This document shows, piece by piece, positions 47,522 through 53,378 of a DNA stretch of 64,000 bases (positions within the stretch are counted from its first letter, which is position 1; every line of letters starts with the position of its first letter). The stretch comes from Denitrobaculum tricleocarpae (lineage in GTDB: Bacteria; Pseudomonadota; Alphaproteobacteria; Kiloniellales; Kiloniellaceae), in NCBI RefSeq assembly GCF_007004665.1, contig NZ_ML660056.1, positions 372,001 to 436,000 of the forward strand, given 5' to 3'. A program made the position numbers and the translations under genes. The notes under the pieces were generated by a model. That model had not been told where the DNA came from. It saw only the letters and a list, made by a program, of their open reading frames with translations, and searched no databases.

Positions 47522-48295
47522 ATGCCGTTTATTCTGCCCCTTGATGACGACAATCCCCGGATCAGGCTCCCGCACCCCTGGGTAAACTGGACGCTGATCG
47601 GGCTCTGCTTTGCGGTTTTCCTAGTTCAGGTCGTGAGTCCGCCCACTGTCGAGTTCAATCTCATCAAAACCTTCGGCGCTATTCCCAGGCTTGTCGTCGG
47701 GGGCCCTTTCGAGAGCTTCACGTCGATTGGCATGCCGGCCATCGCGAGCATCGTCACCTACGCCTTTCTGCATGGTGATATCATTCATTTGCTGCTGAAC
47801 ATGCTGGTTTTGTGGGTCTATGGCGACAATGTCGAAGACTCTATGGGGCACACCAACTACCTGATCTTCTATGCGATTTGCGGGATTTTGGCCGTGTTCA
47901 GCCAGATCCTGATCAATCCCTCGTCCACAAGTCCGATTATCGGCGCCAGCGGCGCGATCGCCGGCGTGATGGGCGCTTACTTCGTGCTCTACCCCAAGGC
48001 GCGCCTGCTGGTTCCCATTTTCATTTTCCCGGTCTATCTGCCCGCGTATCTCGTGCTTTCCTTTTGGATGCTGTTTCAGATTTTAGCGGCCTTTCAGGCG
48101 GATTCAGCCGTAGCAGGCGTCGCCTGGTGGGCGCACATCGGCGGGTTCGTGGCCGGCGCTGTCCTAATCAAATTCTTCCGCCACAAGGTGCACTTCGATG
48201 TCGCCCCCCACGAGTTGCCAAAGGGCATCGAAATCAACAGTTTCTCGCGTGACAGGAACCCCAAACGGGCGCGCAGCCGGCAGGATGAGAGCTAA
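47522..48295 (+). CDS. Rhomboid family intramembrane serine protease
   Basis: A 257-residue membrane protein with about six helices. The catalytic serine is in PIIGASGAIAGVMGAY and the histidine in WAHIGGFVAGA; the early HGDIIHLLLNMLVLWVYG is also conserved. Start ATG at 47522 has AAGGG upstream. Its stop overlaps the stop of the convergent hypothetical gene. Confidence 0.93.
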   Translation: MPFILPLDDDNPRIRLPHPWVNWTLIGLCFAVFLVQVVSPPTVEFNLIKTFGAIPRLVVGGPFESFTSIGMPAIASIVTYAFLHGDIIHLLLNMLVLWVYGDNVEDSMGHTNYLIFYAICGILAVFSQILINPSSTSPIIGASGAIAGVMGAYFVLYPKARLLVPIFIFPVYLPAYLVLSFWMLFQILAAFQADSAVAGVAWWAHIGGFVAGAVLIKFFRHKVHFDVAPHELPKGIEINSFSRDRNPKRARSRQDES

Positions 48296-48651
48296 CTTCG
48301 CAGCAGATCCCGGTGCCGATCAATCTCACGGATAAAGCTGTCGAGTTTCTCGGCGAAATGGCCTTTCTGCATCTCCAGCACCGCGATCCTGGTATCGTGG
48401 TCCAACCAGTCTCGCGGCCGCGTTTTTCCGACCGGAATTTCCCAAATGGCAGAGCTTTTCCTGGGGCCATCGTGTTGTGGGTCGACGAGGAAGCTGACAA
48501 CGAGTGTGTAGCCGTAGGCCCGAGTGGTTGAGCTTATCGTCCAGTGTTCGTCGGCCCACCAATCCGGCTCGCCGTCAATCTGAACCACTTCCCAACCGCT
48601 TTGCGAGAGTGCGCCACGTATCTGATCCCGGAAACTCTTCTTAGTAACCAC
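48292..48651 (-). CDS. Conserved-looking hypothetical protein, unknown function
   Basis: About 119 residues from a GTG at 48649-48651, or 126 from a TTG at 48670-48672. No family is recognised. The compact sequence has an early charged helix (KSFRDQIRGALSQSGWEVVQI), a tryptophan-rich strand region (DWWADEHWTISSTTRAYGYTLVVSFLVD) and a C-terminal helix (TRIAVLEMQKGHFAEKLDSFIREIDRH). There is no signal or membrane segment. Codon use looks like that of its neighbours. Its last codons overlap the rhomboid stop tail to tail. Confidence 0.6.
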   Translation of the reverse strand: MVTKKSFRDQIRGALSQSGWEVVQIDGEPDWWADEHWTISSTTRAYGYTLVVSFLVDPQHDGPRKSSAIWEIPVGKTRPRDWLDHDTRIAVLEMQKGHFAEKLDSFIREIDRHRDLLRS

Positions 48652-48907
48652 AGAACCTAAGTAACCTCTCAAATTTCAACAAACAGCGCAGTGACTTACG
48701 CGAAACCACATCAGTTCCGAAACACTGATTGGATTTTACACAAATCGGGGTTGAATAATCTGGCGCTGTTATTTGTAAATTATAGCTAAAGGCCGACAGG
48801 TTCGGACAGCGGCAGGCGCTCATAATCATAAATCTTTAAGGACTGCTGGCTTATACATCGGGGTGCGCCGATGCGCAGCTTGGATTATTGAGTGAGTGGT
48901 GGGGGTC

Positions 48908-51531: not shown

Positions 51532-51803
51532 GACACTCCCTCTGCTGAATTTTGTTGTTGTCCACCTCGGAGCTGCCCTTTTTCCGGACTTAAGCTCCTG
51601 AATACCGCGCGCAGAATAACGATGCGTCCGGGTCTGCACCAACATTATTAATGCACGACACCCGGGCGTGAACTGCATGGAAAAGAGGATGCTATTGCGT
51701 TGGAAAGACTGTTCAGATGCCAGGATTGAGCGGCAGGCAGAGTGGTCCGGTGGGCAGAGGTGCCAAGAACAATCCAATACCGGAAGTCAGCAAAGGGGCT
51801 GAA

Positions 51804-52280
51804 TTATTGAGCATTGATAATTTCTGCAACAGCGTCCAGCAATGCTTTGCCGCAGGTTTGAGTAGATGATTTTGTGTATTGGCCCATTCTCCGTTCAGAC
51901 CCCCTTGCCTCGGACTTCGGCAAGGCCAATGCGCGGGCTGTAAGTTCGGCGTGGCTCTCTCCATCTATGTAAGCCAAGATAAATGTCATGTCAGACGCTC
52001 TAAGCCACTTCTCCGCTTCGCTAATCTGGCAATCGCAGAAGGCTTTGTGCACTGCGTCCGGGTAAATTCTGCTACGTGTGCGCATGACTTGTGTAACGCA
52101 GTGGCGATAGTACCTTTCCTGCATATCTCCAGACCAGAATGGCTCGGAGGCTATGGCAGAGTGATTGGTGCTCGGTTTAAAACCGAAAGCGAAAAGCAAT
52201 ACGGCCACAGCAAGCAGATTTACAGCAATCGGGCGGGCAACAGCGCCTTTCATTCGACCTTCCATTCTATTGGGTCTCAT
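51804..52280 (-). CDS. Four-cysteine small exported protein, paralogue 1 of 3
   Basis: A 158-residue protein if started at ATG 52278-52280, which overlaps the stop of paralogue 2 (ATGA). An ATG nine codons later with GGAAGG is an alternative. A hydrophobic signal or anchor (about residues 16-34) is followed by a soluble domain with Cys61, Cys82, Cys84 and Cys143. The core CDCQISEAEKWLRASDM aligns directly with the other two paralogues. This is the most diverged member. Function is unknown. The four cysteines and the exported position suggest two disulfides or a metal site. Confidence 0.75.
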   Translation of the reverse strand: MRPNRMEGRMKGAVARPIAVNLLAVAVLLFAFGFKPSTNHSAIASEPFWSGDMQERYYRHCVTQVMRTRSRIYPDAVHKAFCDCQISEAEKWLRASDMTFILAYIDGESHAELTARALALPKSEARGSERRMGQYTKSSTQTCGKALLDAVAEIINAQ

Positions 52281-52726
52281 AAACCTTGCCCCTGAATGTC
52301 TTCCTTTGTTAAGCCCGCATTGAGTGCCACCTTCGCGCATGTTGGTAGAAGGGACTCCCGGAATTGGTTTATTCGTCCCAGAAACTCTTGTTGTTCCGGT
52401 TTTGATAGATCTCTTGTGAACTCCTCCACTTCAGTCCATCCCTTCCGGCCATCGACGGCAGCAAAGTGAACCGTCATATCCGATGGTTGAAGCCATCTCT
52501 TCATTTCGGACACCTGGCAATTACAAACAACCTCCTGGATCGCGGGTGCTTGCCCCTCGGATTCCTTGATGCAGGAAGCATGAATGCGGCTAACCAGATG
52601 ATCCGACCATACCGCTTCGGGCGTTGCTGCAGGTTCGTCGAAGCCCCAGTTGAACACGACCCCAGCAGTAACGACACCGACCGCAACCAGGGCATATCCA
52701 ATCTTGCTTCTACTTGCTCTTCCCAT
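52277..52726 (-). CDS. Four-cysteine small exported protein, paralogue 2 of 3
   Basis: A 149-residue protein with an N-terminal signal or membrane anchor (residues 8-25) and Cys52, Cys68, Cys70 and Cys130. The core CNCQVSEMKRWLQPSDM is nearly identical to that of paralogue 3. ATG is preceded by GGGAG. It lies 37 nt after paralogue 3 and overlaps paralogue 1, so the three form one operon. No homologue is recognised. Confidence 0.78.
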   Translation of the reverse strand: MGRASRSKIGYALVAVGVVTAGVVFNWGFDEPAATPEAVWSDHLVSRIHASCIKESEGQAPAIQEVVCNCQVSEMKRWLQPSDMTVHFAAVDGRKGWTEVEEFTRDLSKPEQQEFLGRINQFRESLLPTCAKVALNAGLTKEDIQGQGL

Positions 52727-52763
52727 AGCCTGCTCCCTTTGGCATCGGTCGAATGAGCCAGGT

Positions 52764-53210
52764 CTACTGTACGGCGCGCTCGGCGAGCGCCGCGTCAAGG
52801 CCGGCTTTAAAGCAGCTTTTCAGAGTGGATTCCCGATAGAGTTCAGTGCGCTCAAGAAAGGCGCGCTGCTCGGATCGGGACAGGATTTTGGATTGGGAGA
52901 CCATCTCGCGCAGGCCGGTTTTTCCTTTGGCGGCTGCGAGGAAAACCGCCATATCCGATGGCTTGAGCCATCGCTTCATTTCAGCCACCTGACAGTTGCA
53001 AACCGCCTGGTGAACGACCGGAGACCGGGTCTTACTCTTCCTGATTTCTCTTATGCAGGAGGCATGAAATCCACTGACCACCTTTTCCGGCCACTTGGGG
53101 TCCGAGGTGGCCACAGATTGCCGCGTATTGAGGTTCAGAAGAATGATCGCCGCCGCAGCAGCAATGGCCAGCAGGCTGATCGCCGTTTTGCGCTTATAAA
53201 GCCCCTGCAT
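52764..53210 (-). CDS. Four-cysteine small exported protein, paralogue 3 of 3
   Basis: A 148-residue protein, first gene of the triplet, with ATG behind AAAGGCG. A signal or anchor helix (residues 10-26) precedes a domain with Cys52, Cys71, Cys73 and Cys133. The core is CNCQVAEMKRWLKPSDM. Spacing from the CxC to the last cysteine is 59, 59 and 58 residues in paralogues 3, 2 and 1. That shared layout shows one family created by tandem duplication. Its upstream neighbour is a DDAH-like gene 168 nt away. Confidence 0.78.
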   Translation of the reverse strand: MQGLYKRKTAISLLAIAAAAAIILLNLNTRQSVATSDPKWPEKVVSGFHASCIREIRKSKTRSPVVHQAVCNCQVAEMKRWLKPSDMAVFLAAAKGKTGLREMVSQSKILSRSEQRAFLERTELYRESTLKSCFKAGLDAALAERAVQ

Positions 53211-53378
53211 TTGTTACGCCTTTCGATTGTGCGCGTATAGGTCGAAAGACTATTTAAGACACAGTAATGGTTAAGAATTCTTGAGCATAAACGCGCATGA
53301 TTTTCCCCAAACGGAGTCTGTCTGACGCTTAGGTCATACGACTGCGAGTGGTTTGGAATGCCAGAGTGGCGGCTGAGA

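Follow-up and report, generated by a model that had tools for sequence, protein, structure and literature searches.

Small exported helical proteins that carry disulfides are a kind already known, and the four-cysteine module described here is an unnamed variant of it, on which nothing was found in the open-access literature searched. Among mitochondrial proteins, CHCH and small TIM proteins are twin-Cys α-hairpin proteins with twin CX9C or CX3C motifs. The likeness to the present gene triplet would lie in a helical hairpin held by disulfides in an oxidizing compartment, whereas the cysteine spacing sets the triplet apart, its spacers being 15–20, 1, and 58–59 residues. Thioredoxin-like oxidoreductases carry CxxC in a thioredoxin fold; the triplet proteins differ in having CxC, all-α predicted models, and no Pfam match. 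Rap1a and Rap2a, immunity proteins of the Tai4 type associated with the T6SS, are likewise small, exported helical proteins with disulfides, although they contain, according to the accessible portion of the source, one disulfide per subunit (PMC3852654) versus four cysteines in each triplet protein. Rap1a and Rap2a also show no sequence match to the triplet, and no effector gene is recognized near it.

Three Tandem Genes for Four-Cysteine Proteins

The window, a 64,000-nt stretch of the Denitrobaculum tricleocarpae genome, contains three consecutive minus-strand genes (g1–g3, Table 1). An earlier note on this DNA had described their products as proteins of 148–158 residues with an N-terminal signal or anchor helix and a common cysteine layout, all of which holds. 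A hydropathy scan detects an export signal or anchor as a hydrophobic 17-mer at residue 9–10 (mean KD 2.3–2.6), the best such segment beginning at residue 9 in each of g1, g2, and g3. The cysteine spacers are 18/1/59 in g1, 15/1/59 in g2, and 20/1/58 in g3, which gives the frame C-x(15–20)-C-x-C-x(58–59)-C. The proposal of related tandem copies is also borne out: the three proteins are homologous, with a likeness far beyond chance (BLAST identities of 40% for g1 versus g2 and 31% and 30% for the other pairs, over nearly the whole length; E = 4e-37, 3e-25, and 4e-18 for the three pairs). Searches of g1–g3 against Pfam, NCBIfam, PADLOC, and solved structures returned nothing significant, in line with the claim that they belong to no known family. 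Among the seven close homologues considered below, the best Pfam E-value is 0.034, and no immunity-protein model was listed.

Two ATG codons could start g3, and both are also kept in the congener G003. The one at 52253 is probably the start rather than the overlapping one at 52280, since GGAAGG precedes the former and its position agrees with the starts of g1 and g2 in the alignment. The previously noted 37-nt gap between g1 and g2 therefore stands, but the ATGA overlap of g2 and g3 would disappear in favor of a 23-nt gap if this likelier start is used.

Table 1. Features of the triplet locus, numbered by position in the window
Feature	Position	Strand	Description
Interval shared with one congener	51682..53378	.	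Two other congeners have a shorter ddaH–ilvD spacer without similarity
g3	51804..52253	-	149-aa paralogue, ATG after GGAAGG; C52, C73, C75, C134 (149-aa form)
g3, alternative start	51804..52280	-	158 aa, ATG at 52280
g2	52277..52726	-	149-aa paralogue (counted from ATG); C52, C68, C70, C130
g1	52764..53210	-	148-aa exported or anchored four-Cys protein; C52, C71, C73, C133
g1 leader	53217..53296	-	78/80 bases identical to congener
TTAACCAT	53267..53274	-	Identical to published CtrA half-site; 56 nt upstream of g1 ATG
ATGGTTAAGAATTCTTGAGCAT	53267..53288		Imperfect palindrome, 22 nt, overlapping 15-nt arms; contains the CtrA-type half-site

Selection and Probable Exchange between Two Species

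Comparison of the window with its congener provides evidence that the frames are translated, as the earlier note had supposed. Purifying selection is strong on g1 (ω = 0.085; 32/43 changes at codon position 3, p = 4e-8) and moderate to weak on g3 (ω = 0.22; 13/23 changes at position 3, p = 0.02). With only 12 changes, spread 4/4/4 over the codon positions (ω = 0.60), the species comparison by itself gives no support for selection on g2, which is taken as a real gene because it is 40% identical to g1 over nearly its entire length.

The same comparison separates g2 and g3 from their surroundings. Third-position differences affect 4/149 codons in g2 and 13/158 in g3 versus 183/882 in valS (p = 1.5e-9 and 1e-4); g1, by contrast, does not stand out from its surroundings (32/148 codons, p = 0.83 versus valS). 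Synonymous divergence follows this pattern, with dS of 0.04 for g2, 0.13 for g3, 0.38 for g1, and 0.32–0.54 for valS, ddaH, and ilvD. In a binned comparison, divergence between the species dips to 1–5% at about 51900–52650, across g2 and g3, and bins over most of ilvD are low as well (2–7%). GC3 is 0.51 in g2 and 0.53 in g3, below valS (0.74), ilvD (0.72), and ddaH (0.62), which is not the case for g1 (0.67). The simplest reading is that g2 and g3 were probably exchanged recently between the two lineages; unusual constraint at synonymous sites is a possible alternative for their low dS.

Distribution and Genomic Context

A profile of g1–g3 retrieved close homologues from 3/23 genomes of the family, and a seven-sequence profile (A2) from 3/61 genomes of the order, namely, the window's own genome (G000), its congener G003, and G016 from another genus. 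G003 has the same intact triplet between the same genes, in synteny, while G016 has a single gene, P0006, whose product is 28–32% identical to g1. The cysteine pattern, on whose retention in close relatives the earlier note had staked its case, is intact in 7/7 close homologues, including all four cysteines of P0006. Farther out, with part of each genome's candidates scored, a search of 385 genomes of the class gave a strong match in G000 only, plus two weak, partial matches (43 and 36 positions), and a search of 398 genomes of the phylum with the core profile A5 again gave a strong match in G000 only.

The neighbors of the triplet in the window are valS (named by eye), ddaH (ADI/DDAH-like), and ilvD. 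The earlier note had proposed checking whether homologues recur as arrays beside ddaH and ilvD. Such an array is found in one congener, and in the other genus the gene is single. In two further congeners (G001 and G002), ddaH and ilvD are adjacent; the spacers between their frames measure 211 and 290 bp and encode no similar protein. These genes are not obligate partners of the triplet. In G016, P0006 instead sits between methyltransferase and gamma-glutamyltransferase genes. The four-Cys genes of the two genera thus occupy unrelated sites; little can be read about their function from ddaH, ilvD, and valS.

The slot in G016 varies in content among its relatives. In G022, the closest to G016 by the neighboring methyltransferase (81%), the methyltransferase and gamma-glutamyltransferase matches lie about 100 bp apart, and the four-Cys gene is absent between them. 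The slot is perhaps a small insertion hotspot. In G018 it holds a RES-like frame (L029:487–1407, minus strand; PF08808, E = 0.0036, below the cutoff).

A separate observation concerns another frame in the window, at 48292–48672 on the minus strand. It encodes 126 aa without a Pfam match at E up to 1, and a similar frame adjoins a cheZ-like gene in a congener.

Profile Link to a Wider Exported Module

The A5 searches of the class and phylum each matched nine non-self genomes at E up to 0.1, in 17 distinct places, of which nine were read and eight left unread. Eight of the nine inspected weak matches were chance frames or unrelated proteins. The other, L051 (E = 0.07), has a signal peptide and two consecutive copies of the cysteine frame; this seed was picked by eye among the nine before testing. 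Aligned with L051 alone by hhalign, the triplet profile scored 34.6%. Relatives of L051 were found in 92/142 genomes of one other alphaproteobacterial order, and 30 fetched loci yielded 42 two-module proteins (the L051/L057 family), encoded by two copies side by side in 12/30. Each of the eight cysteines in the two modules is kept in at least 41 of the 42 proteins, and the family has no convincing Pfam match (best E = 0.001, in 1/42 members, to DUF7096).

Against this family the triplet core profile A5 reached 94.8% with module 1 (score 43) and 68% with module 2 (score 28) in hhalign. A reversed control scored 17.3, and 0/200 column shuffles with the Cys columns fixed, which destroy helix periodicity as well as order, reached the observed scores (maxima of 20.8 for module 1 and 22.1 for module 2). 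By subgroup, the match to module 1 was 92% for g3, 70% for g1, 37% for P0006, and 33% for g2, and P0006 reached 90% with module 2; a module-1 HMM gives the close homologues 16–24 bits. Only part of the domain is aligned, in about 45 columns that run from helix 1 through C and CxC to the next cap. Triplet and family also share the export signal, the arrangement C-x(n)-C-x-C-x(n)-C, a VEDM/PSDM-type cap that follows the CxC helix, and adjoining gene copies. They differ in that the family has two modules per protein, a C3–C4 distance of about 40 versus about 60 residues (about 20 residues less between CxC and C4), and a site in the gat operon, whereas the triplet lies between ddaH and ilvD.

Sixteen enlarged regions (L101–L116), which we selected from the 92 genomes, all have a four-Cys-module gene or pair between the genes that cluster with a presumed gatA and with gatB (16/16). 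The calls used an amidase model (PF01425) for gatA and PF02934 and PF02637 for gatB, with Pfam run on the members of one region. A tandem pair is present in 5/16, and one or two other frames intervene in 3/16. Among the 30 loci first fetched, gatA was within reach in 30 and gatB in 24. An exported eight-Cys protein inside a tRNA amidotransferase operon is unexpected.

Run over 372 genomes of the class, a profile of the 42 family proteins without any triplet sequence (A6) matched 12 at E up to 0.01. Its sole match at this cutoff in G000 (6.4 Mb; 9/11 candidates scored) was g1 (E = 9.5e-4), which is not a fully independent test because A6 grew from a seed found by the triplet profile. At each of ten further A6 loci, for which only frames containing C-x-C were listed, there is a frame with the C-x(n)-C-x-C arrangement that, judged by eye, also has a lipobox or signal peptide. 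These data were merged into a module profile of 30 rows (A8) made of the 7 close homologues, 16 module-1 segments (1/42 segments had fewer than four cysteines; every second of the other 41 was listed, giving 21, of which 16 were used), and 7 single-module proteins (7/10 loci read, with L095, L099, and L100 left out). In this alignment C1, C2, and C3 are invariant in 30/30 rows and C4 is present in at least 90%, partly by construction, since the rows were gathered with Cys-bearing profiles. A8 matched 16/181 class genomes at E up to 0.1, 5 of which had given rows. Seven of the other 11 hold a plausible exported four-Cys protein, although for two of the seven (L123 and L125) the contig ends within the locus and CxC served to select the frame; the remaining four (G093, G107, G115, and G236) are false matches with no plausible exported four-Cys protein.

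The A6 and A8 matches, from searches that covered the triplet's own order in part, indicate a module that has a patchy occurrence in the class and is frequent in one order, and its architectures elsewhere in the class include lipoproteins. The new element here is this profile link, by which the triplet is probably a divergent, single-module branch of an unnamed exported four-Cys module present in several alphaproteobacterial families. Of the earlier suggestion of an unrecognized family, the lack of a named family stands, while its isolation probably does not. A name and profile for the module would group a number of hypothetical proteins, for which the gatA–gatB setting and a possible fusion would offer two handles on function. 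The possible fusion is L136:1–1020 (plus strand), a membrane protein with an HGSNAT_cat domain (PF07786, E = 3e-62) whose tail matches A8 weakly (E = 0.015); it may join the four-Cys module to a membrane acyltransferase-like domain.

A Proposed Disulfide-Stapled Binding Module

AlphaFold models of g1 and g3 agree in five helices that follow the N-terminal segment; both are all-α with no strand, at moderate confidence (mean pLDDT of 73.8 and 73.3), and both runs rest on the same six sequences. Among the 7 close homologues, the invariant residues other than cysteine are S, E, D, A, G, L, R, and K plus the start Met; His is not conserved at any position, nor is Met at any other. Conserved cysteines unaccompanied by such His or further Met, the all-α prediction, and the varied architectures fit a binding domain. 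We consider it about an even bet (probability near 0.5) that g1–g3 are envelope proteins whose disulfide-stapled helical, non-catalytic module binds a protein partner; no functional neighbor or partner was found beside them.

An export signal or single membrane anchor would place the domain on the periplasmic side. A bond between Cys1 and one cysteine of C-x-C would cross-link the first two helices as a hairpin, and a second, between Cys4 and the other C-x-C cysteine, would hold the last long helix. So built, the proteins would dock as non-catalytic binding domains on a partner in the envelope. The genes may have entered the ddaH–ilvD junction in the lineage to which the window's genome and one congener belong, loss from the other congeners being the possible converse, after which tandem duplication would have produced three versions that now contact the same or related partners. 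The triplet has the look of a recent gain, duplication, and exchange of a four-Cys gene.

A broader extension of the binding-module reading is a long shot: the module could be an ancient superfamily of disulfide-stapled α-hairpin adaptor or chaperone units in the periplasm of alphaproteobacteria, occurring alone, doubled in the gatCAB operon, in lipoproteins, and in the HGSNAT_cat fusion. If so, it would be, by analogy only, a bacterial counterpart of the helical hairpins that disulfides staple in the mitochondrial intermembrane space.

Alternative Explanations

Foremost among the rivals, though unlikely, is an orphan array of immunity or inhibitor proteins, each copy blocking a different periplasm-acting toxin or lytic enzyme from competitors. 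Tandem diverged copies, the patchy distribution (3/61), the lower G+C of g2 and g3, and the signs of their exchange between species would suit such an array, as would the resemblance to Rap1a and Rap2a as small helical proteins with one disulfide each (in the accessible portion of PMC3852654). A T6SS sheath gene (PF05591) occurs in 4/4 genomes of the genus searched, but these include two congeners without the triplet, and no sheath gene was found in G016, which carries a relative, or in G018 and G022. Both g1 and g3 show purifying rather than diversifying selection, and no effector gene is recognized among the neighbors valS, ddaH, and ilvD. In each of the 16 selected regions, moreover, the wider family occupies the gatA–gatB interval, a location unlike that typical of immunity genes.

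Somewhat less probable still is a role in thiol redox chemistry or metal binding with the C-x-C pair as active site. The earlier note had named redox, metal-binding, and inhibitor proteins as examples of what the three might be. That pair is invariant in the 30 aligned module rows, yet C1 and C4 are conserved too (30/30 and at least 90%), which suggests structural disulfides. The missing conserved His and further Met in the close homologues and the strandless all-α models argue mildly against metal binding and thioredoxin-type redox roles.

We regard as improbable the view that g1–g3 are cell-cycle-controlled envelope factors, of flagellum, pilus, or pole, under CtrA. It draws on the g1 leader, which is likely a promoter or regulatory region, is more conserved than the ddaH-proximal part, and contains TTAACCAT, given as a CtrA half-site in the accessible part of PMC3692519. 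This octamer has one match in the window versus 0.67 expected by chance, is absent from the 3.4-kb stretch around the four-Cys gene of G016 (L005), and occurs once in an 8-kb stretch of the triplet-free congener G002 (L021), which makes it a lead only. Inspection of the sequence also shows no second TTAA where the published full site, with its N7 spacing, would have it.

That the frames are spurious or decayed, as the lack of a third-position excess in g2 (4/4/4) might hint, can be practically dismissed: identity among the three is 30–40% over nearly full length, a congener has the triplet intact and in synteny, another genus has an intact homologue, and g1 is under purifying selection.
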